Source of the DNA: Pelomonas sp. Root1444
GTDB lineage: Bacteria; Pseudomonadota; Gammaproteobacteria; Burkholderiales; Burkholderiaceae_C
Assembly (NCBI RefSeq): GCF_001426885.1
Contig: NZ_LMFP01000008.1
Location: 14,220-78,219 of the forward strand
Direction: 5' to 3'
DNA: 64,000 bases
The notes under the pieces were generated by a model. It was not told the DNA's origin and searched no databases. It worked only from the letters and a program-made list of their open reading frames with translations. Made by a program: the position numbers and the translations under genes. Below are positions 19,151-36,448 of the stretch, in pieces (within the stretch, counting starts at the first letter, position 1; every line of letters starts with the position of its first letter).

Positions 19151-20686
19151 TCAGGCCGTGGCCGCCTGCGGCTGCACCGGCGCTGCATAGCTGCGCACAT
19201 AGTCCTCGTGCCGCGGCAGCTGCACCAGCTGGCGGGCGACCTGCTTGCGGATCTCGCCGAGGAAGTGGCCCAGCTCGTCGTCGCCCATCAGGTCGGCGGT
19301 CGGGTGGTGGGCACCGGGCGTGAGGCCCTGGCCCAGCATGACCTGGATCCACGAGTTCTCGCCGAACAGCTCGTGCGGTGCCTTGAACACGCGCGCGGTG
19401 TCGCTGAACATCTGGATGCGGTGGGCCAGGGACTGGGGCACGTCCATGGCCGCGCAGTGCTGCCACAGCGGCGCGTCGCGGCGGTTCGTCACCTTGTAGT
19501 GCAGGATGATGAAGTCGCGGATGTGCTCGATCTCGTCGCGCACCTGGCGGTTGTATTCGTCGATGTCGGTCTGGTGGATGCCGCCCGCCGGGAAGCACTG
19601 CATCAGCCGCGTGATGCCGCGCTGGATCAGGTGGATGCTGGTCGACTCCAGCGGCTCCAGGAAGCCGCTGGCCAGGCCGATGGCGACGACATTGCGCTTC
19701 CAGGTCACGTCGCGCTGGCCAGGGGTGAACTTCAGCACGCGCGGCTGCATCAGCGCCTCGCCTTCGATCTTCTGCAGCAGCATGGCCCTGGCTTCGTCGT
19801 CGCCGAGGTATCGGCTCGCGAACACCAGGCCGTTGCCGACGCGGTGCTGCAGCGGGATGCGCCACTGCCAGCCGAACGGGTGCGCGATGGAGCGGGTGTA
19901 AGGCACGGCCTCGCCGACCGAGGCGGTCTGCACCGCGACGGCGCTGTCGCAGGGCAGCCAATGCGACCAGTCCTCGAAGCCCACGCCCAGCGTCTGGCCG
20001 AGCAGCAGCGAGCGAAAGCCGGTGCAGTCGATGAAGAAGTCGCCCTCCACCTCGCTGCCGTCGGCCAGGCGCAGGGCGCGGATGTCGCCATCGTCATGCT
20101 GCAGGACCTGGGCGATCTTGCCCTCGATGCGCTGCACGCCATGGCCTTGCGAGATGCCGCGCAGGAAGACCGCGTAGCGCGAGGCGTCGAGGTGGAAGGC
20201 GTAGTTCAGGCCGTTGCGCGGCAGGTGCGCGAAGCGGTTCTCGAGGCCGGCACGCAGCTCCAGGCAATAGTCGCCGTAGTCGCCGTGCGGCACGCGCTGC
20301 TCGCCGCGCTGCCTTGCGGCCAGCCAGAAGTGCTGGAAGCCAGCCGTCCAGTGGTCCTTGCCGGTCAGGCCGAAGCTGTGGACATAGTCCTCGCCGACAT
20401 TGCGCCAGTTCTCGAACTGGATGCCGAGCTTGAAGGTGGCCTGCGTGGCGGCCATGAACTCCTGCTCGTTGATGCCCAGCAGCTGGTGGTAGGTCAGCAG
20501 CGTCGGGATGGTGGCTTCGCCGACGCCGACGGTGCCGATCTCGTCGGATTCCACGAGGCGGATCGCCAGCCCCTTGCCGAGCACCTTGGACAGCAGCGCG
20601 GCGACCATCCAGCCGGCGGTGCCTCCGCCGGCGATGACGACGCGACGGACGGGGCCGGTGCGCAGGGGGGCGTTCGTGTGTTGCAT
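19151..20686 (-). CDS. Flavin-dependent tryptophan halogenase family protein (distal copy)
   Basis: A 511-residue FAD-dependent protein, last gene of the receptor/SapC cluster. It has an FAD-binding GGGTAGW motif at residues 20-26, GVGEATIP, the FKLGIQFENW segment holding the Lys equivalent to catalytic Lys79 of PrnA, the diagnostic WxWxIP motif as WQWRIP, and LEPLESTSIHL, where the Glu corresponds to PrnA Glu346. The halogenase residues therefore look intact. Such genes recur beside TonB receptors, SapC and cupin proteins in carbohydrate-utilisation loci of Caulobacter and Xanthomonas, where their true substrate is unclear. The start at 20686 begins just after the cupin stop. No partner flavin reductase is in the window. 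Confidence 0.88.
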   Translation of the reverse strand: MQHTNAPLRTGPVRRVVIAGGGTAGWMVAALLSKVLGKGLAIRLVESDEIGTVGVGEATIPTLLTYHQLLGINEQEFMAATQATFKLGIQFENWRNVGEDYVHSFGLTGKDHWTAGFQHFWLAARQRGEQRVPHGDYGDYCLELRAGLENRFAHLPRNGLNYAFHLDASRYAVFLRGISQGHGVQRIEGKIAQVLQHDDGDIRALRLADGSEVEGDFFIDCTGFRSLLLGQTLGVGFEDWSHWLPCDSAVAVQTASVGEAVPYTRSIAHPFGWQWRIPLQHRVGNGLVFASRYLGDDEARAMLLQKIEGEALMQPRVLKFTPGQRDVTWKRNVVAIGLASGFLEPLESTSIHLIQRGITRLMQCFPAGGIHQTDIDEYNRQVRDEIEHIRDFIILHYKVTNRRDAPLWQHCAAMDVPQSLAHRIQMFSDTARVFKAPHELFGENSWIQVMLGQGLTPGAHHPTADLMGDDELGHFLGEIRKQVARQLVQLPRHEDYVRSYAAPVQPQAATA

Positions 20687-20688
20687 GG

Positions 20689-21690
20689 TCAACGCTTCAA
20701 TCGGTTGAGGAGGTGGGCGCGCATCGCGCGGGCGCCCGCGTCGTCCAGCGGCGCCAGCGCATGGCGGGCGTGCGCGGGGATGTGGGCGACCGCGCGGTCG
20801 CCGTCGTCGAAGATGTAGTGGTCGAACAGATGGCGCCAGCTGCGGCGCTGCTCCGGCGGCAGGCCGCGCATCGTCAGCAGCGCCAGCATCAGCGCATTGA
20901 TGGGCGAGTCCATGTAGTCGGGCGTGCGGCGCCACCAGTAGTTCACCAGCAGGTTCAGCGCGGACAGGGCCTCGACGTGGTGCCACCACATGCTGGGAAT
21001 GAACAGGGCATCGCCCGGCTCCAGCTCGGCCTCCTGCCCGTGCGCCAGGGCCTCGCGGAAGCGCGGGTGGCGGTCGAAGTCGGGGGCGTGGAAGTCGACC
21101 AGGCTGACGGCCTGGCCCGCGGGTGTGAAGTCCAGCGGGCCGACATAGAGGTTGTCGATCTGCTCGGGCGGGAACAGCGTGAAACGGCGCCGGCCGGCGA
21201 CGACGCAGGCGACGTTGTCGGGCAGGTCGAAATGGGCCGAGATGCGGCTGCGGTTGCCCAGCCACAAGCTGACGATGGGGTCGTCCACCGCCAGCCCGAG
21301 GTCGTTCTCGGCGCGAAAGCCCGGCAGGCAGGTGTCGACGCTCGTCGCGCCGATGTAGAGGGCCGGCGGCTGCGGCGCGCCCAGCAGCTGCATCAGCGAG
21401 CCCAGCACGACGTCGAAGCGGCCGACCTTGCGCTCGAAGTTGAAGCCGGTGAAGTCGTCGTTGTAGAAGAGCCGGCCGCCGGCCTCGGGCGGCGCGAGCA
21501 TGACGCCGACGGTGGCGTCGCGCCAATGGCCCAGCAGGTAGCCGGCGAGCGCCTCGGGCGATTGCAGGCCGGCCTGCACGGCGGGCCAGTCGCGCACCAG
21601 GCCGCGCAGCACCAGCGGCTCGGTGGCCGTGAGGATGTCGTCGCCCAGGTCGGCCGGCTTCAGGCCGGTGCGTTCGCGGATGGCTTGCAT
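20689..21690 (-). CDS. Cupin-like (JmjC/cupin_8-type) domain protein
   Basis: A 333-residue cytoplasmic protein resembling JmjC/cupin_8 Fe(II)/2-oxoglutarate-dependent oxygenases. His153-x-Asp155 (AHFDLPDN) and a downstream histidine in MWWHHVEAL (237/238) would form the metal triad; the intervening LFPPEQIDNLY and EPGDALFIPSMWWHHV stretches are typical of the family. Many members hydroxylate protein or small-molecule substrates; the substrate here is unknown. It overlaps the SapC stop by one base (TGATG) and precedes the halogenase by 2 bases, so the three are co-translated. Confidence 0.85.
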   Translation of the reverse strand: MQAIRERTGLKPADLGDDILTATEPLVLRGLVRDWPAVQAGLQSPEALAGYLLGHWRDATVGVMLAPPEAGGRLFYNDDFTGFNFERKVGRFDVVLGSLMQLLGAPQPPALYIGATSVDTCLPGFRAENDLGLAVDDPIVSLWLGNRSRISAHFDLPDNVACVVAGRRRFTLFPPEQIDNLYVGPLDFTPAGQAVSLVDFHAPDFDRHPRFREALAHGQEAELEPGDALFIPSMWWHHVEALSALNLLVNYWWRRTPDYMDSPINALMLALLTMRGLPPEQRRSWRHLFDHYIFDDGDRAVAHIPAHARHALAPLDDAGARAMRAHLLNRLKR

Positions 21691-22406
21691 CAGGCTGGCT
21701 GCATCAGGCGGTTGCGTCGGTCGATGAGGTCGCGCCAGCGCGACATCGAGGCCAGCACCATGTGGATGGGCACGAGATGGCCGGCGCGGCTCAAGCGCTC
21801 CAGTGCTTCGCCCGGCAGGGCCGCGAGGCGCTCCTCGTGAAGGGTGTAGTAGCCCGACAGCCGCCCCTCGCTGCCGTCCTCGAGCTCGATGTCGAGCACG
21901 AAGGCCTCGAGCAGGTTCAGCGACAGCAGCGCCGCGGTGAGCTCGCGCATCTGCTGCATGCCGTGATGCAGGGCGAGCAGCAGGGCGTTGATGCGGTCCA
22001 GGAAATCGCTGCTGCCGCCGTGGGGCAGGAAGACCGCCTGCGTGCCGGCCGCGGGGCCCGCGGCGATGCGGGGGCTGGCCAGGTCGACCTGGATCATCAG
22101 CGCCTGCTCGCCCATGCCGATCAGGAAGGGTTGGCGCTCAACAGCCATGGGCAGGTAGTGGGCGTCCCATTGCCCGTCGGACAGGAAGAGGTTCTGGCCC
22201 GGCTCCAGGCCGAACAGCGCGACGGCGTTGAACTGGGTGCCGTCGGCGCTTTTCTGGAAGACGATGGGGTAATGGGCCTGGGCGTTGCGGAACTCTTCGG
22301 GCACCAGCAGCGCGGACTGCACGGCGTCGCCGAAACGCGCGCCGTGCCCGGTGTGGATGTGCAGGCCGGCGTGCGCTACGTTGTCGAGCTGGGCGGGTTG
22401 GGTCAT
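21690..22406 (-). CDS. SapC family protein
   Basis: A 238-residue protein matching the SapC family (named from the Campylobacter S-layer locus): an N-terminal HAGLHIHTG segment, the YPIVFQKSADGTQFNAVALFGLEPGQNLF core (quoted in part), and a C-terminal ALERLSRAGHLVPIHMVLASM. No signal peptide or membrane span is apparent. Its biochemical role is unknown; it is a standard companion of TonB receptors and halogenase-like proteins in carbohydrate-uptake loci. One-base TGATG overlaps on both sides tie it to the upstream halogenase and the downstream cupin gene. Confidence 0.88.
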   Translation of the reverse strand: MTQPAQLDNVAHAGLHIHTGHGARFGDAVQSALLVPEEFRNAQAHYPIVFQKSADGTQFNAVALFGLEPGQNLFLSDGQWDAHYLPMAVERQPFLIGMGEQALMIQVDLASPRIAAGPAAGTQAVFLPHGGSSDFLDRINALLLALHHGMQQMRELTAALLSLNLLEAFVLDIELEDGSEGRLSGYYTLHEERLAALPGEALERLSRAGHLVPIHMVLASMSRWRDLIDRRNRLMQPA

Positions 22407-23947
22407 CAGATGTGCGGCAGCCCGCTGCGGATGATGTGGTCGATGAGGGCGCGGTGCTTCGGCAGGCCGCCGAGCATGCGACGGGAGAGGGCAGCGGCGG
22501 CCTGCAGATGCGGTGCGGCGGCCTGCGCTGCCGCGGGCCTCGCGGTCGATTCTGGACGAAAGCCCATGCCGTACAGCACGTACTGGTAGCTGGCCCAGGG
22601 AAACACCTCATCGATGCGCCCCAGGTCCAGCCGCGACGGCGGGCGCTCGCGCCACAGCGGCAGCAGTTCGCGCAGCGCCTCGGGCCAGCTCGCGGGGTCG
22701 CGGTGCTCGCGCCAGTAGGCGCTGTCGTCGCGCTGGCTCAACGCGTAGTGCAGCTTCAGGAAGTCGATGACACGGCGCCAGCGGTAGGCGAACACCTCGT
22801 TGAAGCGGCGTGCCAGCGTGGGCAGGGCGGCGCGGTCGGCAGGCAGCGACTCGCTGATCCATTGCACGCTGAGTTCGACCATGGCCAGGGCCGAGGCTTC
22901 CAGCGGCTCGATGAAGCCGCTGGACAGGCCGATGGCCACGCAGTTGCCCACCCAGAAGCGTTCCCGGTAGCCGGGCGTGAAGCTGATGGGCCGCATGGCG
23001 GGCAGCGGCTGTGGCGCGCCCGTGGCGCGCAGGTAGTGGCGCAGCGCTTCGGCGGCTTCGTCCTGCGTCGCGTGGCGGCTGGCGTAGACGGCACCGACGC
23101 CGCGCCGCTGCGGCAGGCCGATGTCCCAGATCCAGCCCTTGGACCAGGCGGTCGCGATGGTGCAGCTGGCCAGCGGGGCGTCCGGCTCGGCATGGGGCAC
23201 CTGCATGGCCAGGGCGGCATCGTTGAAGAGCACGTCGCGCTGCTCGACCAGCGGCACGCCGTGGTGCCCGCCGATCAGCAAGGAGGGCAGGCCGGAGCAG
23301 TCGATGAAGAGGTCGGCCGCCAGGTCGCCGCTGGTGCGCGTGCGCAGCGCGGCGACGCTGCCATCAGCGGCGGGCAGCACCGCTTCGACGTCGTCGACGA
23401 TGTGTCGGACGCCGCGCTTGCCGACGGCGTGGCGGCGCAGCAGTTGGCTGAACTTGCCGGCATCGAAGTGGTAGGCGTAGTTCGCCACCGCGGCGAACTG
23501 CGGCGTGGCCGCCTGCTTGGGCGCCAAGCCAGCGTCGCAGACAGCGGTTTGCGGGCAGACGACCTCGGCGAAGGGGCGGTCGGCATGTTCGGCCAGCCAG
23601 GCCGCAACGAGGTCAGCCTCGCCGCAGCCGGTGGGCAGGGTGAAGGGGTGGTGGTAGCGATCGCCTTCGCGGCCGCTGGCCCAGCCGTCGAAGCGCGAGC
23701 CCTGCTTGAAGCTGGCGTCGCATTCGCGGATGAGGTCGACCTCCGAGATGCCGATGCGGCGCAAGGTGTCGCGCATCGACGGCCAGGTGCCCTCGCCGAC
23801 GCCGATGGGCGGCGTCGAGGCGGACTCGATGAGGGTGATGCACAGCGGACCGTCGGGCCCGCCGTGTTCGGCGGCCAACAGGCCGGCCACCAGCCAGCCC
23901 GCGGAGCCGCCGCCCAGCACGACGATTTGACGCAGTCGAGTATTCAC
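22406..23947 (-). CDS. Flavin-dependent tryptophan halogenase family protein (proximal copy)
   Basis: A 513-residue paralogue of the distal halogenase-family protein, first gene after the TonB receptor. FAD motif GGGSAGW lies at residues 12-18, followed by GVGEGTWP, FKQGSRFDGW (Lys79-equivalent retained), WIWDIGLP in place of strict WxWxIP, and IEPLEASALAM (Glu346-equivalent retained). The altered tryptophan motif and divergence from the distal copy suggest a different substrate or function. The GTG at 23947 is chosen because an upstream ATG at 24004 would put the terminator hairpin at 23961-23986 inside the coding sequence. It overlaps the SapC start by one base. Confidence 0.85.
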   Translation of the reverse strand: MNTRLRQIVVLGGGSAGWLVAGLLAAEHGGPDGPLCITLIESASTPPIGVGEGTWPSMRDTLRRIGISEVDLIRECDASFKQGSRFDGWASGREGDRYHHPFTLPTGCGEADLVAAWLAEHADRPFAEVVCPQTAVCDAGLAPKQAATPQFAAVANYAYHFDAGKFSQLLRRHAVGKRGVRHIVDDVEAVLPAADGSVAALRTRTSGDLAADLFIDCSGLPSLLIGGHHGVPLVEQRDVLFNDAALAMQVPHAEPDAPLASCTIATAWSKGWIWDIGLPQRRGVGAVYASRHATQDEAAEALRHYLRATGAPQPLPAMRPISFTPGYRERFWVGNCVAIGLSSGFIEPLEASALAMVELSVQWISESLPADRAALPTLARRFNEVFAYRWRRVIDFLKLHYALSQRDDSAYWREHRDPASWPEALRELLPLWRERPPSRLDLGRIDEVFPWASYQYVLYGMGFRPESTARPAAAQAAAPHLQAAAALSRRMLGGLPKHRALIDHIIRSGLPHI

Positions 23948-23960
23948 AAGCGGGGTCTTC

Positions 23961-23986
23961 AAACAAAAAGGGCCGCTCGCGCGGCC
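23961..23986 (-). terminator. Intrinsic terminator/attenuator between TonB receptor and halogenase genes
   Basis: On the minus strand GGCCGC-GCGA-GCGGCC (6-base-pair perfect stem) is followed by CTTTTTGTTT. It sits between the receptor stop at 24048 and the halogenase GTG at 23947. There is little room for a new promoter before the halogenase, so partial read-through, giving high receptor and low downstream expression, is plausible. Confidence 0.8.
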
Positions 23987-24047
23987 TCGCCCATCGGCGA
24001 ACAAGGGCGGCGCCCCCGCGGACGGGAGGCCGCCGAACCAGCCGGTG

Positions 24048-27020
24048 TCAGAACTTGTAGCGCGCGCCGATCATGAAGCGGCGGCCGGTCTGCGTGACCA
24101 TCTGCAGGATCTCCTTGCGGCGCTCGTGCGCGCGCTGGATCTCGTCGGTCAGGTTGATGGCCTCGAACTGGAAGGAGAGCTTCTCGTTCATCTTGTAGCC
24201 CAGGCTGAGGTCCACCTGGCCGTAGGGCTCGGTGTAGATCGGGTTGGGCTCGCGGCCATCGTGGCGGCCGGAGAGGAACTTGCCGCGCCAGTTGTACGCA
24301 ACGCGGGCGCTGTAGGTGTTGTCCTCATAGAAGCCCACGAGGTTGCCCGAGTTGGACAGGCCTTCCAGCGCGAACTGGTCGCCGATCTTGGCGTCCTCGT
24401 ACTTCAGGCCCGACTTCACGTAGGTGTAGTTGGCCGAGAAGCCGAAACCGTTGCGGAAGGCGTACTGGACATTGACCTCGGCGCCGTTGATGTAGTCGTT
24501 GCGCTGGTTGGCCGGCACGGTGATGTCGAACACCGCGATCGGGTCGCCCGGCTGGCCGACGATGGTGCCTTGCCAGTTGCCCTGGGCGTCCTTGTCGCCG
24601 CGCGTCACGCCGGGGGCGGTGGCCCGGTTCGTGAAGATCCAGTTGCGGATGCAGGGGTTGTCCGTCGCGGCACAACCCGAAGCCGTGGCCTCCTTGAACA
24701 GCGTGCCGCCGATCGGCGTGGGCAGATTGAACGGCGTGCCCTTGACGATGGTGTTGCCGATGTAGTTGCTGATGTTCTTGCGGAACAGGCCCACGGCGAC
24801 GTACGAGCCCTTGTCGAGGTAGTGCTCCAGCGAGAGGTCGAAGTTCTTGGACTTGAGGGGCTTCAGGCCCGGATCGCCCTGGGCGCCGTTGCCGCCACCG
24901 GCGCGCACCTCGTTGAGCGTCTGGCCGCCCTGGATGGCGCCCCAGCCTGGGCGGCCGATGCTTTCGCCGTAGCTGGCGCGCAGCTTGGTGTCGGACGTCA
25001 GTTCGAAGTCCAGGTCCAGCGACGGCAGCACGTAGCTGTACTTGCCCTTGAGCTCGGTGAAGCTGGCCGGGCCGTAGGTCAGCGAGAACTCGTTGAACGC
25101 GCGCCACGAGATGCCCGTGGCCGTGGGCACGAGCGCGCGGGAGGTGACGTTGGTGCGCTCGTAGCGCAGGCCCAGCGCCGCGCCCACCGGCACGATCCAG
25201 TCCCATTCGGTGTTGAACTGGGCGTACAGGCTCTGCGACTTCTCCTGCGTGCGACGGTCGACCGAGCCGGGCTGGGTGTAGTCGGTCGGCGCGCGGTACT
25301 TGCCGTTCGGGTCCAGCTTGGCCGCGATGGCGTTGAGCGCGGCAAAGTCGAAGGTGTTGAAGCTGTTGAACATGGCGGAGCTGCCGCTGCCGCCCACGCG
25401 GGAGAAGTACTTGCTGATCGAGTCGGGCGTGAAGAGGTCGTCCGGGTAGTCCGCCGCCGTGGCGATGCCGCCCCAGCTGCCGTTCTCGTTGACCGCGAAG
25501 GCGGTGCGGTTCTTCACATGCGTCAGCGAGACGCCGAAGTCCAGGTTGGAGGTGTCGGTTAACTTGTAGTTGCTGCGCAGCTGCACCTGGTCCACGTCGG
25601 ACTTCATGTAGCTGTTGCGGTAGGACGAACCGGTGGCGAGCTGGCGGCTCGTGTCGGACGTGGCACCGGGCAGGCTCCAGACCGGGAAGTCGTTGCTGAA
25701 GTCCACCGTCGTCGTGCCGCGGCTGAACACCGCCGAGCCCTGCACGGCATTGGAGCCGTAGGGGCTGTCCGGCTTGGTCACGGCGGTGGAGTGGTGGGCG
25801 TCCAGCTCGAACTTCAGCGAAGGCGTGGTCTTCCAGGCCAGGTTCAGGCCGGTGGAGTGGTTGGTGTTCTTCACGGCGAACTGGCCCGAGCCCATTGCAA
25901 GGTCGCCGGTGCCGACGCCGTTGACGATCTCCGAATAGATCAGCGGCGCGGCGGCGGGGCCATCGGTCCAGGTGGTGTTGGACGGGCCGAAGCCGAACCA
26001 GGCCGAGACGTCACTGCGACGGGACTGCAGCTTGTTCTCGGAGTAGGTGTGGTCCAGTGTGGCGACCACTTCCTTGATCGGCTGGAACTGCAGCGTCAGC
26101 TGGCCGTTGACGCGCTCGCGCTTCACGCCGGTGAAGCTGTAGCCGATGCTCTGTGGCGTGGAGTAGACGCCGCTGCCGGTGGGGCGGTTGACGGCCGTGC
26201 TGCCCGGGGCGATTTCGCCCCAGCCGCCGCCGTTGGCGGGAATCGTGTGCCAGCCGTTGAACACGCCGGCCTGGTTGTAGCCCAGGTCGCGGCGCTGGTA
26301 GCTGCCGGTCACCGCCACGCCGAACTTGCCGTCGGCGAAGACGTTGCTGTAGATGCCCGAGACCTCGGGGGTGACGGCGTCGCCCTTGAGGCGGTCGGGC
26401 AGGTTCTGGCCCGACTGGTCCTTGACGAGCTTGATGCCCAGGCTCGCGACCTGCTGCCTGGTATCGAAGGGGCGGGCGGTCTTGATGTTGATGGTGGCGC
26501 CGATGCCGCCCGTGGGGGCGTTGGCGCGGGTGGTCTTGAAGACCTCCAGCGCCGAGACCGATTCGGCGGCGAGGTTGGCGAAGTCGAAGGCGCGCGAGTC
26601 GGAGGCGCTGGCATCGTTGATGGCGGAGGCCGGCATCTGGCGGCCGTTCAGCAGCACCAGGTTGAAGTCGGGGCCCACGCCGCGCACGGTGACCTTGGAG
26701 CCTTCGCCGATGGCCGAGCGGTCGATGGACACGCCGCTGATGCGCTGCATGGCTTCAGCGAGGTTGGTGTCGGGGAATTTGCCGATGTCCTCGGCCACGA
26801 TGCCGTCCACGACACCATGGGCGTTGCGCTTGAGGTCGACCGAGGATTCCAGGCTGCGGCGGATGCCGGTCACGATGACCGTTTCGAGTTGCTGCGCACC
26901 GCTGGCGGCGCCTGCGGGCGGCGCGGCGGCGGTCTGGGCGTGCACCGCAGCGCTGGCGAACAGCAGGCCGCTGGCGGCCGCCAGGGTGGTGAGGCGAAGG
27001 GCAGGTCGAGGCTGTCTCAT
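24048..27020 (-). CDS. TonB-dependent receptor, Xanthomonas/Caulobacter carbohydrate type
   Basis: A 990-residue outer-membrane receptor. A signal peptide (about residues 1-29, ending VHAQ) precedes the TonB box region (LETVIVTGIRRSLESS) and a plug with the subfamily-typical DIGKFPDTNLAEAMQRISGV, TVRGVGPDFNLVLLNGRQMP and LEVFKTTRANAPTGGIGATIN (quoted in part). The long barrel ends in RRFMIGARYKF with a terminal Phe. This subtype mostly imports oligosaccharides. The ATG at 27020 has a good ribosome-binding site (GGAGACAAGAGA) and replaces a longer open frame. Two LacI-type operators lie upstream, and the beta-glucanase genes nearby suggest beta-glucan oligosaccharides as ligand. Confidence 0.93.
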   Translation of the reverse strand: MRQPRPALRLTTLAAASGLLFASAAVHAQTAAAPPAGAASGAQQLETVIVTGIRRSLESSVDLKRNAHGVVDGIVAEDIGKFPDTNLAEAMQRISGVSIDRSAIGEGSKVTVRGVGPDFNLVLLNGRQMPASAINDASASDSRAFDFANLAAESVSALEVFKTTRANAPTGGIGATINIKTARPFDTRQQVASLGIKLVKDQSGQNLPDRLKGDAVTPEVSGIYSNVFADGKFGVAVTGSYQRRDLGYNQAGVFNGWHTIPANGGGWGEIAPGSTAVNRPTGSGVYSTPQSIGYSFTGVKRERVNGQLTLQFQPIKEVVATLDHTYSENKLQSRRSDVSAWFGFGPSNTTWTDGPAAAPLIYSEIVNGVGTGDLAMGSGQFAVKNTNHSTGLNLAWKTTPSLKFELDAHHSTAVTKPDSPYGSNAVQGSAVFSRGTTTVDFSNDFPVWSLPGATSDTSRQLATGSSYRNSYMKSDVDQVQLRSNYKLTDTSNLDFGVSLTHVKNRTAFAVNENGSWGGIATAADYPDDLFTPDSISKYFSRVGGSGSSAMFNSFNTFDFAALNAIAAKLDPNGKYRAPTDYTQPGSVDRRTQEKSQSLYAQFNTEWDWIVPVGAALGLRYERTNVTSRALVPTATGISWRAFNEFSLTYGPASFTELKGKYSYVLPSLDLDFELTSDTKLRASYGESIGRPGWGAIQGGQTLNEVRAGGGNGAQGDPGLKPLKSKNFDLSLEHYLDKGSYVAVGLFRKNISNYIGNTIVKGTPFNLPTPIGGTLFKEATASGCAATDNPCIRNWIFTNRATAPGVTRGDKDAQGNWQGTIVGQPGDPIAVFDITVPANQRNDYINGAEVNVQYAFRNGFGFSANYTYVKSGLKYEDAKIGDQFALEGLSNSGNLVGFYEDNTYSARVAYNWRGKFLSGRHDGREPNPIYTEPYGQVDLSLGYKMNEKLSFQFEAINLTDEIQRAHERRKEILQMVTQTGRRFMIGARYKF

Positions 27021-27068
27021 TCTCTTGTCTCCGGAGTTGTGATCTTGTGGCGGTGGCCCCGAAAGGGC

Positions 27069-27082
27069 TGAAAGCGCTTTCA
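27069..27082. promoter_or_regulatory. LacI-family operator-like palindrome O1 (receptor promoter)
   Basis: TGAAAGCGCTTTCA is a perfect 14-base palindrome, with a central CG typical of LacI/GalR-family operators. It lies 49 bases upstream of the receptor start, 26 bases centre-to-centre from O2. The same core recurs before the sugar ABC operon. The adjacent LacI-family gene is the likely binder. Confidence 0.82.
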
Positions 27083-27093
27083 AGAATAAGCGA

Positions 27094-27109
27094 TTGGAAG
27101 CGCTTTCAA
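27094..27109. promoter_or_regulatory. LacI-family operator-like palindrome O2 (receptor promoter)
   Basis: TTGGAAGCGCTTTCAA is a 16-base palindrome with one mismatched pair. It lies upstream of O1, about 2.5 helical turns away, so two dimers or a tetramer could bind cooperatively. Confidence 0.78.
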
Positions 27110-27213: not shown

Positions 27214-28260
27214 TCAGCGCGTCATGCGCCGCGTGCTCTCGCGCGCCACCAGCGCCGGCTCGGGCAGCTGCACCTTGGGCTTGCCGCCGCGCAGCAGCTC
27301 CAGCATGGCCGTCGCCGCGCCGACGCCGATCTCGTAGACCGACTGGCGCACGGTGGTCAGCGGCGGCATGGCGTAGCGCGCCATGATGAGGTCGTCGAAG
27401 CCGACCAGCGACACGTCGTCGGGCACGCGCAGGTTGCGCCGGTGCAGGCCCAGGCAGGCGCCGATGGCCATCTGGTCGTTGGAGGCGAACAGCGCCGTGA
27501 AGCGGCCGTCGCGCTCCAGCAGGCGGCTCACCGCCAGCATGCCGCCGGCCTCGGTGAAGTCGCTCTGCACGATGAGGTTGGGGTCGACCGCGATGCCGGC
27601 CGCGGCCAGCGCGTCGAAGTAGCCGTTCTGGCGCTCCACCGCGTCCTCATGGATCAGATCGCCGGCGATGAAGGCGATGCGGCGGTGGCCCTGCTCGATG
27701 AGGTGCTGGGTGGCCAGCCGGCCGCCCAGGCGATTGTCGAAGCTGAAGCTGAACAGCTGCGGCCCTTCGAGCTGGCGGCCGACGACGACCATCGGCAGGC
27801 TGTCGGCCACCTTGGTCAGCTCGGCGTCGGAGAGCCGGCCGGCCAGCACGATGACGCCGTCGACACGGCGCGACAGCAGGGTCTCGATGGCCTTGCGCTC
27901 GTCGTCCTCGTGCCAGTTGCCGGACACGAACATCGGCACGTAGCCGGCCCGCTCCAGCTCGCGCTCGATGCCGAGCAGCGCCTCGCCGTAGAAGGGGCTG
28001 GAGATGATCTGCGTGACCACGCCCACCGACAGCGTGCGCCCGCCTGCCAGGCCGCGGGCGACCGGGTTGGGGCGGAAGCCGAGGTCGCGGATGGCGGCCT
28101 GCACGGCGTCCTTCTTGGCCTGGCTGACGGCGGCCGTGCCGTTGAGGATGCGCGACACCGTGCTGGGCGACACGCCCGCCTGTTCGGCCACCTGCTCCAG
28201 CGTGACGACGCCGTCCGGCCGGCTTGAAGGCGCTTTCATCGGGGGTGGCTTGGTGGTCAT
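27214..28260 (-). CDS. LacI-family transcriptional regulator
   Basis: A 348-residue repressor-type protein. The N-terminal helix-turn-helix and hinge (VTLEQVAEQAGVSPSTVSRI, about residues 19-38; hinge near NPVARGLAGG) precede a periplasmic-binding-protein-like sugar-sensing domain (VGVVTQIISSPFYGEALLGI, GRRVD-type region as SRRVDGVIVLAG, HRRIAFIAGD, FASNDQMAIGACLGL, PDDVSLVGFDD). Operators with a GAAAGCGCTTTC core lie at the TonB receptor and ABC/GH operons flanking it, and a one-mismatch copy overlaps codons 8-12 of this gene, suggesting autoregulation. The likely effector is a beta-glucan oligosaccharide or glucose derivative (inference). An internal ATG at 28239 is an alternative start. 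Confidence 0.92.
   Translation of the reverse strand: MTTKPPPMKAPSSRPDGVVTLEQVAEQAGVSPSTVSRILNGTAAVSQAKKDAVQAAIRDLGFRPNPVARGLAGGRTLSVGVVTQIISSPFYGEALLGIERELERAGYVPMFVSGNWHEDDERKAIETLLSRRVDGVIVLAGRLSDAELTKVADSLPMVVVGRQLEGPQLFSFSFDNRLGGRLATQHLIEQGHRRIAFIAGDLIHEDAVERQNGYFDALAAAGIAVDPNLIVQSDFTEAGGMLAVSRLLERDGRFTALFASNDQMAIGACLGLHRRNLRVPDDVSLVGFDDLIMARYAMPPLTTVRQSVYEIGVGAATAMLELLRGGKPKVQLPEPALVARESTRRMTR
28225..28238. promoter_or_regulatory. LacI-family operator-like site inside the start of the LacI gene (one mismatch)
   Basis: On the plus strand TGAAGGCGCTTTCA matches O1 (27069-27082) at 13 of 14 positions. It covers codons 8-12 of the regulator gene. It could be an autoregulatory roadblock site, or a coincidence created by the Met-Lys-Ala-Pro codons. 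Confidence 0.5.
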
Positions 28261-28337: not shown

Positions 28338-30929
28338 TCAAGGGGGCGTCGCGGGGATGCGGTTCAACGTGGCGAGAAGCAGATCGATGTCGACGGGCTT
28401 GACCAGATGGCCGTCGAAACCACTGGCCTCGCTGCGCCGGCGGTCGGCGTCCTGCCCATAGCCGGTCAGTGCGATGAAGCCGCAAGGTGTCTTCAACACG
28501 CCGCGCAGTTGCGCCGCCAGTTCGTAGCCGTCCATCACCGGCAGGCCGATGTCCAGCAGCGCGACCTGCGGATGGAAGGCCTGCGCCACGCGCAGCGCCT
28601 CCAAGGGGTCGTGCGCGAGCAGCACGCTGTGGCCGTTGGCGCGCAGCAGCATGCCCAGCAGCTCGCCCGCGTCGGCGTTGTCGTCCACGACCAGGATGCG
28701 GCGCTGGCCATCGTGGTCGTTCGGGGTCGCGTCGCTGGCGGGCGCCGCGTCGCTGCCAGTGTCCGGGCGCTGGGTCGGCAGCCTGACGATGAACTCGCTG
28801 CCGCACCCGGGGCCGTCGCTGCGCGCCTCGACCGTGCCGCCGTGCAGCTCCACCAGGTTCTTGACCAATGCCAGGCCGATGCCGAGACCGCCCTCGGCGC
28901 GGTCCATGCCCTGGTGCCCCTGGAAGAACAGCTCGAACACGCGGGGCAGCATGGCCGGCGCCAGGCCCTTGCCGTTGTCGGCCACGGAGATGGCGATGTC
29001 TTCGCCGTCGCGCCAGGCGCGCAGCCGCACATGCCCGCCCGGGTCGGTGTAGCGCACCGCGTTGGTCAGCAGGTTGGACACCACCTGGGCGAGGCGCGTG
29101 GGGTCGCCGCGCCACAGCATGCCGGTCGGCGGCACGTCGATGGACAGCCGGTGGCGGCGCTGCTCGAACAGCATGCTGGCCATCTCGACGGATTTGGCGA
29201 GCACCTGGGCGATCTCGACCGACTCGGTGCGCAGCTCCACCTTGCCGCGCGTGATGCGCGACACGTCGAGCAGGTCGTCGACGAGGCGGATCAGGTGGTC
29301 GACCTGGCGCTGGATGATGGCCTGCTCCTTGGCGCTCTGCAGGTCGCCGCGCATCTTCATCAGCTCCAGCGCCGTGACGATGGGCGACAGCGGGTTGCGC
29401 AGCTCGTGCCCCAGCATGGCGAGGAACTCGTCCTTGGCCTGGCTGGCGGCCTGCAGCTCATCGAGCAGCCGGGACCGTTCGGCATTCGAGGCCTCGAGCA
29501 CGCGCCGCCCATGCACCAGCGCCGTCACGTCCACTGCGAGCACCATCACGCCGTAGGCCGCGCCGTCCGGCGCCCGCAGCGGCTCCACGTTGAACTTGAA
29601 GAAGCGCTCCGCCGTCGCGTCGGCGGCGGCCAGGTGTGGCCGCACGCTGAGCTCGTCGACGACCACGGGCTGCCCCGTCTCGAACACCCGCTCGAGCATC
29701 TTCGGCAGTGCGGTGCCCGCCAGCTCCGGCAGCACCAGGCGGTGCGCCTTGCCCACCAGGTCCGTCCGGCCCACCATCTCGCAGTACAGCGAGTTCGCGA
29801 GCCGGAAGACGAGGTCCGGCCCGGTCAGCAGCGCCGCCGCCACCGGCGCACGCATCAGCAGGTTGTTGCGCTCGCGTTCGGTGTGCTCCCGCAGCGACCG
29901 GTCGGTGACGTCGCGGGTGAAGCAGCGGGTGTAGACGAGGCGGCCGTTCTCGAAGTAGGCGTTCGAGGTGATCTGCACATGCTTGCGGCCGCCGTCCCGG
30001 CAGCGCAGCGTCGCGGGTTGGTCGCGCAGCGTCTGGCCGGTCGCGAGCTTGTGCAGGATGCTCGTGATCAACTGCTGGTCCACATAGAACTCGGCGATGT
30101 GGCGGCCGATGTAGTCCCCGGCGGCGTAGCCCAGCATGTCGAGCTCGGCCTGGTTGGCCCACAGGATGATGCCGTCCGCGCCGACGCGGTGCAGGCCCTC
30201 GGCCGCGTTGTCGAGGAAATCGGACAGCTCCTTCTCGCGCCGGCGCAGCGTGCGCTCCGCCTCCAGGCGCCGGGCCACCTCGCTTTGCAGGGCGGCGGCC
30301 TGCTGCTGCAGCTTGGCGACGGTCGTGCCGACGTCCGCCGAGCCGGCCGGGAAGGCGAAGCTCTCGGCCGGCTGCACCCCCGTGTGCAGCGCGCACACGT
30401 GCCGGAACGACTCGGCCTGCTCGCTGCTCGCGAACAGCGCCATCGGGTAGGCGCACAGCAGCGTGAACGTGTGCCGCTGGGCCAGCCGGTTCCAGAACTC
30501 CTCCAGCTGGTGGGCCGCCTCGGGCTGACCGTCCGCACACAGCAGCGCGACCATTTCGCCGAAGGCGCGCACGGCGCGCGTGCCCCTGTGGGTGGCGCGG
30601 GCGACGACGGCGCCGACCGCCGCCTGGAAGAGGGCTTCGTCCGGACGGCCGCCGACCATGAACTGGGCCAGGGTTTCGCGCGCGTCCAGCGCGATCAGCT
30701 CCCCCGGATACCAAGGCTGCGCACTTTGGGCGCCGCCGAAGCCCTGCAGCCGGCGCCCGATGGCGGCCCGATGCTCGGGGGTGGCGATCAGGATGGCGGC
30801 GTCTGCGGAGCGCAAGGCGCCGTCCAGAAACTCCGCCACCTCCTCCACGATGAACGCGTCGTCCTCGTAGAACTGGACGAGGTGCGAACCGGGGCTCAAA
30901 GCCCGGGGCGCGAGAACGGCATCTTGCAA
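28338..30929 (-). CDS. Cytoplasmic hybrid sensor histidine kinase (MEDS-PAS-PAS-HisKA-HATPase-REC)
   Basis: A soluble 863-residue hybrid kinase with no membrane span. An N-terminal MEDS (DcmR-type) domain (HLVQFYEDDAF, about residues 16-180) is followed by a coiled coil, two PAS domains (about 240-490), a dimerisation domain with phospho-acceptor His508 (GHELRNP), an ATPase domain (DNGKGLA, GGLGIGLAL) and a C-terminal receiver (743-863) with Asp793 (LLDIGLPVMDG). The frame stays open for 80 codons upstream, but the TTG at 30929 has a near-perfect ribosome-binding site (GGAGG, 5-base spacer) and directly precedes the MEDS domain. It lies between the LacI gene and the ABC operon; no partner output protein is adjacent, so its target is unknown. 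Confidence 0.87.
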   Translation of the reverse strand: MQDAVLAPRALSPGSHLVQFYEDDAFIVEEVAEFLDGALRSADAAILIATPEHRAAIGRRLQGFGGAQSAQPWYPGELIALDARETLAQFMVGGRPDEALFQAAVGAVVARATHRGTRAVRAFGEMVALLCADGQPEAAHQLEEFWNRLAQRHTFTLLCAYPMALFASSEQAESFRHVCALHTGVQPAESFAFPAGSADVGTTVAKLQQQAAALQSEVARRLEAERTLRRREKELSDFLDNAAEGLHRVGADGIILWANQAELDMLGYAAGDYIGRHIAEFYVDQQLITSILHKLATGQTLRDQPATLRCRDGGRKHVQITSNAYFENGRLVYTRCFTRDVTDRSLREHTERERNNLLMRAPVAAALLTGPDLVFRLANSLYCEMVGRTDLVGKAHRLVLPELAGTALPKMLERVFETGQPVVVDELSVRPHLAAADATAERFFKFNVEPLRAPDGAAYGVMVLAVDVTALVHGRRVLEASNAERSRLLDELQAASQAKDEFLAMLGHELRNPLSPIVTALELMKMRGDLQSAKEQAIIQRQVDHLIRLVDDLLDVSRITRGKVELRTESVEIAQVLAKSVEMASMLFEQRRHRLSIDVPPTGMLWRGDPTRLAQVVSNLLTNAVRYTDPGGHVRLRAWRDGEDIAISVADNGKGLAPAMLPRVFELFFQGHQGMDRAEGGLGIGLALVKNLVELHGGTVEARSDGPGCGSEFIVRLPTQRPDTGSDAAPASDATPNDHDGQRRILVVDDNADAGELLGMLLRANGHSVLLAHDPLEALRVAQAFHPQVALLDIGLPVMDGYELAAQLRGVLKTPCGFIALTGYGQDADRRRSEASGFDGHLVKPVDIDLLLATLNRIPATPP

Positions 30930-31171
30930 ACTGACCTCCAGCGTCGCAGCGTCCGGAGGGCGCAACGGAAAAATTTGCCGGCGATCTCGCCGGACTCCGG
31001 TAAAGCTGGCACGACGCAGTGCCGCCCTGAACCCGGAGCGGTGGGTAAGTGCAAGCCGCGTGCCTGCCAGGCACCCCAGCTGTCGCGCAGCCATTGCCGC
31101 GCCTGCCACCGTTACCGCCGGTTCCCTAGGGTTTGTGCTGCTGAGCAATGCGCAACGGGCCACGCACAATT

Positions 31172-31187
31172 ATGAAAGCGCTTTCAT
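31172..31187. promoter_or_regulatory. LacI-family operator-like palindrome O3 (sugar ABC operon)
   Basis: ATGAAAGCGCTTTCAT is a perfect 16-base palindrome sharing the 14-base core of O1. It ends 5 bases before the chosen ATG of the sugar-binding protein, so it sits over the ribosome-binding region or transcription start. A repressor here would block initiation directly. It links the ABC/GH1/GH16 operon to the same regulator as the TonB receptor. Confidence 0.82.
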
Positions 31188-34193: not shown

Positions 34194-35525
34194 ATGAATC
34201 CTCTGCATCGTCAGTTCCCGCCCGACTTCGTCTGGGGCGTCGCCACCAGCAGCTTCCAGATCGAAGGCGCCGCCCATGAAGACGGCAAGGGCGAATCCAT
34301 CTGGGACCGCTTCTGCCAACAGCCTGGCGCCATTGCCGACGCCAGCAACGGCGACGTGGCCTGCGACCACTACCACCGCCTCGACGAAGACCTCGACCTG
34401 ATCGCCGCGCTGGGCGTCAACTGCTACCGCTTCTCCATCGCCTGGCCGCGCGTGCAGCCGCTGGGCCATGGCGACTTCAATCCCAAGGGCCTGGACTTCT
34501 ACGAGCGCCTGGTGGACGGCCTGAAGCGACGCGGCATCCAGGCCTTCGCGACGCTGAACCACTGGGACCTGCCGCAAGGCCTGCAGGACCGTGGCGGCTG
34601 GAACGACCGCGACACGGTGCACCGCTTCGTCGACTACGCCCGCCACGTGCAGGCCCGCATCGGCGACCGGCTGGACGGCCTCACCACGCACAACGAGCCC
34701 TGGGTGGTCGCCGTGCTGGGCCATGAGCAGGGTAATTTCGCACCGGGCATCAAGAGCCGCCGGATCGCGGCGCAGGTGTCGCACCACCTGCTGCTCAGCC
34801 ACGGCCTGGCCTTGCAGGCGCTGCGTGCCGATGGGGCCAGGAGCCTCCTCGGCATCGTGCTCAATCTGTCGTCCTGCATGCCCGCCACCGCCATGCCCGC
34901 GGACATCGCCGCCGCCCGGCTGGCCGACTCGCGCGGCCGCCGCTGGTACACCGACCCGCTTTTCAAGGGGCACTACCCCGACGACGTGCTGGCCGAACTC
35001 GGCGCCGACGCACCGGTCGTGCAGCCCGGCGACATGGCGGCCATCGCCCAGCCGATGGACTACCTCGGCGTCAACTACTACACCCGCAGCGTCCTCTCCG
35101 CCAGCGGCGAGGACTGGAAGGCCGGCGAGCGTGGCCTGCCGGTCTCCGACATGGGCTGGGAAATCTACCCCCAGGGCCTGACCGACCTGCTCGTGCTGCT
35201 GCACCGCGACTACCCCGACCTGCCGCCCGTCTACGTGACCGAGAACGGCGGCGCCTTCAAGGACGACGCCGTCGCCAACGGCCGCGTGCAGGACGACGAC
35301 CGCACCGCCTACCTGCGCGACCACATCGCCGCCGTCGCCAACGCCATGCAGCAGGGCGTGCCGATGGCCGGCTACATGGTGTGGAGCCTGATGGACAACT
35401 TCGAATGGGCCAGCGGCTACCTGAAGCGCTTCGGCATCGTGCATGTCGACTACGCCACCCAGGCGCGCACGCCCAAGGCCAGCGCCGAGTGGTATCGGCA
35501 GTTTCTGCAAGACTGGCGCCGTTGA
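34194..35525 (+). CDS. Beta-glucosidase, glycoside hydrolase family 1
   Basis: A 443-residue GH1 enzyme without a signal peptide, so it acts in the cytoplasm on imported beta-linked oligosaccharides. FVWGVATSSFQIEGA (residues 12-26) is the N-terminal family signature. The acid/base Glu168 lies in THNEPW and the nucleophile Glu350 in VYVTENGG; FEWASGYLKRFGIVHVDY is the C-terminal family segment. The length is typical. It follows the permeases directly, so the importer probably delivers its substrate, such as cellobiose, laminaribiose or longer beta-glucan fragments. Confidence 0.94.
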   Translation: MNPLHRQFPPDFVWGVATSSFQIEGAAHEDGKGESIWDRFCQQPGAIADASNGDVACDHYHRLDEDLDLIAALGVNCYRFSIAWPRVQPLGHGDFNPKGLDFYERLVDGLKRRGIQAFATLNHWDLPQGLQDRGGWNDRDTVHRFVDYARHVQARIGDRLDGLTTHNEPWVVAVLGHEQGNFAPGIKSRRIAAQVSHHLLLSHGLALQALRADGARSLLGIVLNLSSCMPATAMPADIAAARLADSRGRRWYTDPLFKGHYPDDVLAELGADAPVVQPGDMAAIAQPMDYLGVNYYTRSVLSASGEDWKAGERGLPVSDMGWEIYPQGLTDLLVLLHRDYPDLPPVYVTENGGAFKDDAVANGRVQDDDRTAYLRDHIAAVANAMQQGVPMAGYMVWSLMDNFEWASGYLKRFGIVHVDYATQARTPKASAEWYRQFLQDWRR

Positions 35526-35560
35526 GCGCCCTGACAACACAACGACACCGGAGACCCCAC

Positions 35561-36448
35561 ATGCCCCGCACCACCCGCGCCGCCAACCCCTGGCGCATCG
35601 TCCTGCCCGTCGCCGCCGCCGTACTGACTGCCTGCGGCGGCGGTGGCAGTTCCGCCACGGCCGCGCCCGCCCCGGCGCCGGCGCCGTCCAACAGCTGGAG
35701 CCTGGTCTGGAGCGACGAGTTCGACGGCGCCGCCGGCACCGTGCCCAAGGCCGCCCACTGGAACTACGACCTCGGCAACGCCGAGAAGGACGGCTGGGGC
35801 AACCACGAGTTCCAGTACTACACCGCCAACGCGCGCAACGCGCAGCATGACGGCGCCGGCATGCTGGTCATCACCGCCGAGAAGGCCACCAACCCCGGCC
35901 CCTGCTGGAACGGCAAGCCCTGTGACTACACCTCGGCCCGCATCCAGACCAGCGGCAAGGTGAGCTTCACCTACGGCAAGGTCGAGGCGCGCATGAAGCT
36001 GCCGTCGGGGCAGGGCATCTGGCCGGCGTTCTGGAGCCTGGGTGCCGACATCGCCACCAACCCATGGCCGGCGTCGGGCGAGATCGACATCATGGAGTTC
36101 ATCGGCAAGACGCCCAACGTCACCTACGGCACGCTGCACGGCCCCGGCTACTCGGGCGCCCAGGGCATCGGCAAGCCGCGCGATTTCGGCGTGCCGGTGG
36201 CCAACGACTTCCACACCTACACCATCATCAAGCGGCCGGGCGAGATCATCTGGCAGGTCGACGGCGTCGAGTACCACCGCCTCACGCCGGCCCAGCTGCC
36301 GGCCGGCGGCACCTGGGCCTTCGAGAAGCCCTTCTTCGTCATCCTGAACCTCGCCGTTGGCGGCGATTGGCCCGGCGCGCCGGACGCGACCACGCCGCTG
36401 CCCGCGCGGATGCTGGTGGACTGGGTGCGGATCTACAAGGAGAACTGA
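35561..36448 (+). CDS. GH16 endo-beta-glucanase lipoprotein (laminarinase-like)
   Basis: A 295-residue lipoprotein. The signal peptide ends in a lipobox (VLTAC, lipidated Cys25), followed by a Gly/Ala/Pro-rich linker to about residue 45 and then the GH16 domain. The active site is GEIDIMEF with Glu174, Asp176 and Glu179 (ExDxxE; the extra Met marks the beta-bulge form common in laminarinases). WPAFWSLG precedes it, and FFVILNLAVGGDWPG is the C-terminal signature. It probably cuts beta-1,3- or mixed-linked glucan at the cell surface, upstream of the TonB receptor and GH1 steps. The ATG at 35561 is the one giving the signal peptide. Confidence 0.92.
   Translation: MPRTTRAANPWRIVLPVAAAVLTACGGGGSSATAAPAPAPAPSNSWSLVWSDEFDGAAGTVPKAAHWNYDLGNAEKDGWGNHEFQYYTANARNAQHDGAGMLVITAEKATNPGPCWNGKPCDYTSARIQTSGKVSFTYGKVEARMKLPSGQGIWPAFWSLGADIATNPWPASGEIDIMEFIGKTPNVTYGTLHGPGYSGAQGIGKPRDFGVPVANDFHTYTIIKRPGEIIWQVDGVEYHRLTPAQLPAGGTWAFEKPFFVILNLAVGGDWPGAPDATTPLPARMLVDWVRIYKEN

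Follow-up and report, generated by a model that had tools for sequence, protein, structure and literature searches.

The flavin-dependent halogenases (FDHs) Xcc4156 (PDB entry 6y1w) and BrvH (6frl) are reported to have open active sites and to act on indoles, not on free Trp, and a peptide has been suggested as substrate (PMC7336383, PMC5945002). The long loop that closes over free Trp is reported to be absent in both proteins, and Xcc4156, a structurally solved indole brominase, is described as having an unknown native substrate (PMC7336383). Here we describe a locus in which two genes for FDH-like proteins, together with a SapC-family gene and a cupin gene, follow the gene of a TonB-dependent receptor. 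It lies in a stretch of 64,000 nucleotides from Pelomonas sp. Root1444 (contig NZ_LMFP01000008.1, positions 14,220 to 78,219), which we call the window. The set recurs in constant order in other genomes. We think, with somewhat less than even confidence, that the locus is a LacI-controlled carbohydrate receptor operon with a conserved, receptor-linked oxidative tailoring set, whose most likely substrate is the newly made receptor.

The carbohydrate utilization loci containing TonB-dependent receptors (CUT loci) of Xanthomonas and Caulobacter resemble the locus in their TIGR01782 receptor, LacI-type control and glycosidases; what sets the locus apart is the added FDH/SapC/cupin set. Presumably the Caulobacter maltodextrin and Xanthomonas CUT operons also carry annotated halogenases. 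The main text of the 2007 paper on CUT loci (PMC1790865) contains none of the words halogenase, SapC and cupin, and that of PMC2996990 has neither 'halogenase' nor 'SapC'. TonB, cupin, SapC and 'receptor' are all absent from the main texts of PMC5945002 and PMC7336383; by its legend, a figure of the former shows the genes around BrvH, a second halogenase gene among them. PMC11337851 deals with halogenase transcripts of Colwellia and phage and puts forward a receptor-redox idea on the contact between virus and host, which is different from the set described here; in PMC4911050 'SapC' is the name of a clay. Among the literature matches listed, which covered few subscription journals, no title or beginning of an abstract is about a set of halogenase, SapC and cupin genes at TonB receptors. 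As far as the literature searched shows, the arrangement is under-described, as the original prediction, made from the DNA letters alone, had thought likely.

All five genes lie on the minus strand between positions 19151 and 27020 of the window, where that prediction had placed them, and each is assigned through Pfam or TIGR profile matches of its open reading frame (ORF). The receptor gene (24048..27020, with ATG at 27020) encodes a protein with Pfam plug and barrel matches that is of the TIGR01782 (TonB-Xanth-Caul) type: it scores 626 bits against a curated cut-off of 310 and covers the model from 1 to 868. Its N-terminus, judged by eye, resembles a signal peptide, and its predicted model has a predicted local distance difference test score (pLDDT) of 85.5. 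Behind it come FDH-A (22406..24004, with an alternative GTG start at 23947), a halogenase-like flavoprotein of a WxWDIGLP subfamily; the SapC-family protein (21690..22406; PF07277, 214 bits); a JmjC/FIH-like cupin (20689..21690; PF13621, Cupin_8, 244 bits), which is a candidate Fe(II)/2-oxoglutarate hydroxylase; and FDH-B (19151..20686), of the Xcc4156/BrvH indole-brominase group. Both FDHs match PF04820 (Trp_halogenase) over its full length, with 390 bits for FDH-A and 622 bits for FDH-B at a cut-off of 21. The receptor is thus followed on one strand by SapC-cupin-FDH-B, with FDH-A in between. FDH-A overlaps SapC, and SapC overlaps the cupin, by one base each, and the gap from the cupin to FDH-B is 2 bp, so that the genes do overlap or nearly so, as had been noted. 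None of the four enzyme-like proteins has a signal peptide at its N-terminus, as judged by eye, not with a predictor. A second TonB receptor of the window (11472-14309, plus strand) is weakly TIGR01782-like and stays under the cut-off.

How well this order is kept can be seen in 80 loci, the best of 588 confirmed relatives of the cupin; being chosen by cupin similarity, they inform on the order kept and not on how often receptors carry the set. SapC is present in 70 of them, FDH-B in 70, the receptor in 70 and FDH-A in 48, and in 80/80 the same-strand order fits receptor (T), FDH-A (A), SapC (S), cupin (C), FDH-B (B), missing members allowed. With D for a DUF6445 protein, the complete-like loci are of the types TASCB (37), TSCB (18), -ASCB (7), TASCBD (3), TSCBD (1) and -ASCBD (1), so that T, S, C and B occur together in 59/80 loci (37 TASCB, 18 TSCB, 3 TASCBD and 1 TSCBD); seven of the eight receptor-less A-S-C-B loci start no more than 4.1 kb from the cupin. 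Reduced loci are TC (5, L201 included), -C (2), TSC (3) and TCB (3), and the TC, TSC and TCB loci indicate that the set is used in subsets. In most loci the genes are closely packed: the median gap is -17 between SapC and cupin and 10 between cupin and FDH-B, with largest values of 317 and 1369 (ORF starts were not curated). Source genera include Roseateles, Duganella, Massilia, Rugamonas, Xanthomonas, Lysobacter, Pseudoxanthomonas, Steroidobacter, Cellvibrio and Pseudokordiimonas, and the record names span Burkholderiales, Xanthomonadales, Steroidobacter, Cellvibrionales and Pseudokordiimonas, the order-level names following in part established taxonomy.

The association is also seen when the search starts from whole genomes. 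The genome of the window encodes 13 full-length FDHs, 22 receptors over the TIGR01782 cut-off, 3 SapC and 3 Cupin_8 proteins, and it has a second complete T-A-S-C-B operon on contig C3 (L009). We surveyed 150 genomes of the phylum, this one included, at thresholds of E<=1e-60 for FDHs and E<=1e-90 for TIGR01782 receptors; up to 10 FDH and 5 receptor candidates were scored per genome, and match counts are therefore lower bounds. SapC was found in 54 genomes, FDHs in 15 and a TIGR01782 receptor in 20. With the window's genome excluded, such a receptor is present in 12/14 genomes with FDH and in 7/135 without (Fisher 2.6e-11). Caulobacter vibrioides, listed as a control, likewise has matches to PF04820, SapC, Cupin_8 and TIGR01782. 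At the level of single genes, 54 of the 67 FDHs from the 15 genomes have a TIGR01782-type receptor (over 350 bits with the receptor profile used here) no more than 5 kb away, where about 5% would be expected from the receptor density of the window's genome, applied to all genomes; leaving out four divergent FDHs that were found only by profile within the fetched stretches gives 50/63. The neighbourhood survey thus bears out the repeated association that had been predicted for the SapC-cupin-halogenase set.

The window locus is tied to glycosidase genes by its operators. The pattern GAAAGCGCTTTC, with at most one mismatch, occurs four times in the 64 kb, and shuffling leads one to expect 0.08. 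Two LacI-type palindromic operators stand upstream of the receptor gene (27068..27109); another heads the divergent ABC transporter-GH1-GH16 operon (31172..31187, one mismatch to the 15-bp pattern, exact in a 12-bp core), and an operator-like site with one mismatch falls within or close to the 5' end of the LacI ORF (28224..28238). The linked operon carries a GH1 glycosidase (34194..35525, plus strand; PF00232, 522 bits) and a GH16 glucanase ORF (35381..36448, plus strand; PF00722, 90.5 bits). Since the operator is common to both operons, the receptor-enzyme set and the beta-glucan-type genes are probably one LacI-type regulon. The LacI-family regulator itself (27214..28260, minus strand; LacI helix-turn-helix and Peripla_BP_3 matches) would be the protein that binds these predicted operators, and it may regulate its own gene through the site at 28224..28238. 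Its true start is probably about 45 bp inside the ORF, as the helix-turn-helix match begins at residue 20. A gene lying between that of LacI and the ABC-GH operon (28338-31169, minus strand) codes for a hybrid histidine kinase that carries MEDS and PAS domains. The predicted LacI-type operators and linked GH16/GH1 genes are therefore in place, the same palindrome preceding both operons; the link to beta-glucan holds at this locus, but elsewhere FDH loci carry GH13, GH10, GH3 and other enzymes.

This variety is apparent in 43 FDH loci whose neighbour clusters were named by a scanned representative; 9 of the 18 clusters are identified in this way, DUF6445 included, and 9 are unscanned. GH3 occurs in 8 loci, GH13 in 7, a sugar transporter of the major facilitator superfamily in 5 and another transporter of that superfamily in 4, BNR repeats in 4, and GH10, GH16 and GH1 in 3 each. 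The carbohydrate-active enzymes vary and the receptor type is constant, so what these loci have in common is their receptor, not a glycan.

Both window FDHs have intact catalytic residues. In ORF numbering, the Lys and Glu of FDH-A are K100 and E369, and those of FDH-B are K86 and E347, the Glu being chosen because BrvH E349 stands before T351-S352. The reference residues are K79 and E346 of PrnA and K83 and E349 of BrvH (PMC5945002). Equivalents of PrnA Lys79 and Glu346 are thus kept in both copies, as predicted, with no loss on alignment. When 58 FDH-A and 127 FDH-B proteins of the fetched loci are aligned, 57/58 and 121/127 keep Lys and Glu together. In the six FDH-B exceptions, all divergent paralogues, the two residues were lost jointly (L145:4994-6481, L149:8041-9528, L153:5481-7214, L158:11035-12531, L164:4144-5781 and L085:12248-15067); five of them adjoin intact FDH-B genes in receptor loci, and the L085 stretch is without an intact FDH. 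Such proteins may be non-catalytic partners (pseudo-halogenases). An FDH-A-type protein elsewhere in the genome of the window (L016:6101-7699) has Ser in place of the catalytic Lys, and its stretch contains no TIGR01782 receptor above 350 bits.

The two copies differ in the tryptophan motif, as had been pointed out: the WQWRIP of FDH-B fits WxWxIP and FDH-A carries WIWDIGLP, each being a trait of its subfamily and not peculiar to the window. After the Glu, FDH-A proteins mostly have Ala-Ser-Ala where FDH-B proteins have Ser-Thr-Ser/Asn, and at the classical Thr-Gly halide site FDH-A has Ser in 52/58 and Ala in 48/58. The role of the halide-site residues is taken from PMC7336383 and PMC5945002. 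Ala-Ser-Ala implies that the halide site of FDH-A is not the classical one. The closest solved proteins to FDH-A are 2pyx (521 bits), 9ltb (518) and 9lu2 (437), all annotated as no more than 'tryptophan halogenase'; here the halide-site residues are unlike those of classical FDHs, and the pattern EPLEASA is common to FDH-A, 2pyx and 9ltb. We take 2pyx to be a halogenase-like protein of Shewanella. FDH-B is closest to 6y1w (Xcc4156, 703 bits), followed by 9luq (579) and 6frl (BrvH, 461); it shares the family, the Lys, the Glu and the WxWxIP motif with Xcc4156 and BrvH, and its alignment with Xcc4156 runs almost from end to end. In a T-S-C-B locus of Xanthomonas arboricola (L188) the FDH-B matches Xcc4156 with 1025 bits and 438/505 identical residues (87%). 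In X. campestris, Xcc4156 very probably has the place of FDH-B in a set of this kind. A precedent for peptide-bound Trp as an FDH substrate is MibH (PMC7336383, PMC5945002). MibH differs in belonging to the NAI-107 peptide pathway, and its sequence (5uao) matches FDH-B with 193 bits.

The cupin keeps the HxD...H iron triad (H153, D155, H237), which is invariant in the 7/7 sequences aligned. Its closest solved relatives are FIH (77 bits over 118 residues), then JMJD5 and JMJD7, with matches to C2orf60 entries too; FIH, JMJD5 and JMJD7 are protein hydroxylases. The likeness lies in the JmjC/Cupin_8 match and the triad, and the window cupin is unlike them in being bacterial and in standing in a receptor operon. 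In another locus (L017:4674-11672) two TIGR01782 receptors flank a cupin on the opposite strand, and the stretch holds no FDH. Residues 7-227 of SapC match positions 1-220 of PF07277, that is, the whole domain, and its predicted model is of high score (pLDDT 96.4, predicted template modelling score 0.91). Foldseek at E<=0.001 found no structural relative of SapC in PDB or BFVD, a profile search found no relative either, and kinship with the cupin or DUF6445 was unsupported by profile comparison.

DUF6445 (PF20043) is a further recurrent member, present in 5/43 of the first set of FDH loci as a cluster of which three members were scanned, and in 6 of the 80 cupin-selected loci. Five aligned members have H112-x-D114, H204 and R222 in common, and from this HxD...H...R pattern DUF6445 looks like another Fe(II)/2-oxoglutarate oxygenase; a search of PDB with its profile gave no credible relative (best E 0.65). 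FDH-A, SapC and DUF6445 are consecutive at L124:6324-9414, with an apolipoprotein N-acyltransferase gene upstream, and at L161:6701-9867 an FDH-B-type halogenase is followed by a protein with C-terminal 2OG-FeII_Oxy_5. The fetched stretch of neither has a TIGR01782-type receptor.

Receptors with an adjacent FDH are not scattered over the receptor tree. On a tree of 68 rows, 36 of them FDH-linked (the wide set), FDH adjacency requires 9 changes, where shuffles average 22.8 and 0/500 were as low. Three clades of 16, 15 and 14 rows (45 in all), with 12, 12 and 11 FDH-linked receptors, account for 35 of the 36. Their markers are R148 and D428, each being kept in 34/36 linked receptors versus 12 and 10, respectively, of the 32 others. 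Receptor L139, from genome G090 with no FDH at E<=1e-60, carries both, which means that these residues mark the lineage and not the enzyme. Some candidate targets were rejected as well: W537, the best cupin-linked column (15/16 vs 15/52), is by eye a clade trait, and the dipeptide NW, which ranks second of 400 in the FDH-linked receptors (p 4e-5, ignoring phylogeny) and second of 398 (33 vs 10) inside the R148/D428 group, is not relied on.

How might such a set work? With export signals lacking by eye, the four enzymes would work in the cytoplasm. There FDH-B, using FADH2, O2 and halide, would halogenate residues of an extended polypeptide, and the FIH-like cupin, using Fe(II), 2-oxoglutarate and O2, would hydroxylate residues of it. 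The substrate would most likely be the newly made receptor, ahead of Sec export. SapC might be an enzyme, or an adaptor or chaperone that presents the substrate, and FDH-A would be a second flavoenzyme with a halide site unlike the classical one. As subsets of the set occur with a receptor, every enzyme would have a site of its own to modify and would not be one step in a linear pathway. The open active site, the published peptide idea and the FIH-like hydroxylase would all fit a polypeptide substrate.

A number of observations speak against this proposal. In the genome of the window only 6 of the 22 TIGR01782 receptors have an FDH near, within 3.5 kb (those of the window and of L009-L013), and 9/22 are outside the three FDH clades. 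Nine of the 67 surveyed FDHs are without a TIGR01782-type receptor in their stretch (one is on a 3.3-kb contig), four more lie 5.6-7.1 kb from one, and G090 has TIGR01782 receptors in spite of lacking FDHs at the survey threshold. In a sample of 60 loci fetched for SapC alone, part of the SapC matches listed and mostly higher-scoring ones, an FDH was found in 6, a receptor match in 7 and either in 9, so the SapC family is not restricted to this context. Nor do the receptors reveal a target. Among the 36 FDH-linked receptors no Trp column exceeds 80%. In the module set of 74 receptors W278 is the best FDH-B-linked column (65/66 vs 3/8, tied by G680), but Trp is kept without an adjacent FDH-B in L024, L200, L201 and L235, and L173 has Tyr with FDH-B, so that it was rejected as the FDH-B target. 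No residue was found in the receptors that follows the FDHs independently of lineage, and in the pairs of sister receptors compared by eye, the one beside an FDH and the one lacking it keep the same candidate Trps. The last point could be explained if FDHs act in trans in genomes with several of them. The receptor, named by the original prediction as one possible modified protein, keeps its place as a candidate, though residue-level support was not found in W278, W537, NW or the sister pairs.

Other substrates or roles have to be considered. It is rather unlikely, but by no means far-fetched, that the enzymes act on a small aromatic such as indole or phenol, imported or made by the cell, the receptor link reflecting its uptake or release. 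For relatives that have been characterised, halogenation of free indole derivatives in vitro is reported (PMC5945002, PMC7336383), and the nine FDHs without a receptor in the fetched stretch would be at home here. However, the same FDH type is found in GH13, GH10 and GH16/GH1 loci, the identified neighbour clusters (glycosidases, sugar transporters, BNR repeats and DUF6445) include no aromatic biosynthesis, and an FIH-like hydroxylase would not point to a small-molecule pathway. If the target were instead some other exported or envelope protein encoded elsewhere, receptor operons would carry the enzymes owing to a common growth condition. The presence of SapC in 54/150 genomes, with few of the sampled SapC loci having an FDH or receptor match, suits this idea, as do L124, L157 and L161, which pair an FDH with DUF6445 or 2OG-FeII_Oxy_5 and have no TIGR01782-type receptor in the stretch. 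We regard it as unlikely, given that FDHs are faithful at clade level to three receptor lineages and that the gene order directly behind the receptor is conserved.

More improbable is that FDH-A and FDH-B have lost halogenation and are flavin oxidases or redox sensors, which place receptor production under O2- or halide-dependent control. The Ser and Ala of FDH-A at the Thr-Gly halide site and the six divergent FDHs without Lys and Glu could be read in that way; against it, nearly all FDH-A and FDH-B proteins keep the two residues together, and Xcc4156, 87% identical to a module FDH-B, brominates model substrates (PMC7336383). An aromatic substituent of the glycan, an option left by the original prediction, is the least probable target of all. 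The operator common to the locus and the GH1/GH16 genes speaks for it, but FDHs occur with enzymes of starch, xylan and beta-glucan type alike, also in GH13 (alpha-glucan-type) loci, and to our knowledge GH13-type glycans have no obvious aromatic substituent. Besides, enzymes that look cytoplasmic by eye would meet the glycan only after its uptake and hydrolysis.

Returning to the receptor as substrate, a more specific version of the proposal can be put forward, although we hold it to be doubtful. The set may be an outer-membrane receptor maturation system, in which dedicated FDHs and 2-oxoglutarate oxygenases, with SapC as their partner, would halogenate and hydroxylate the TonB receptor while it is unfolded and still in the cytoplasm, and so tune its carbohydrate-binding loops. 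The parts belong to known families, and the set they form is real and widely conserved; the arrangement, and the tailoring of a transporter if it is shown, would be new. In genomes of alpha, gamma and Burkholderiales type, a large group of FDHs, crystallised ones included, has carbohydrate receptors as neighbours, and four poorly understood families, the receptor-linked FDHs, SapC, Cupin_8 and DUF6445, are grouped into one set. With the receptor polypeptide as prime suspect, the question of the native substrate becomes testable by ordinary proteomics. If the proposal is true, it would supply the native substrate for the BrvH/Xcc4156 group and would be, as far as we know, the first case of halogenase-based modification of a membrane transporter.

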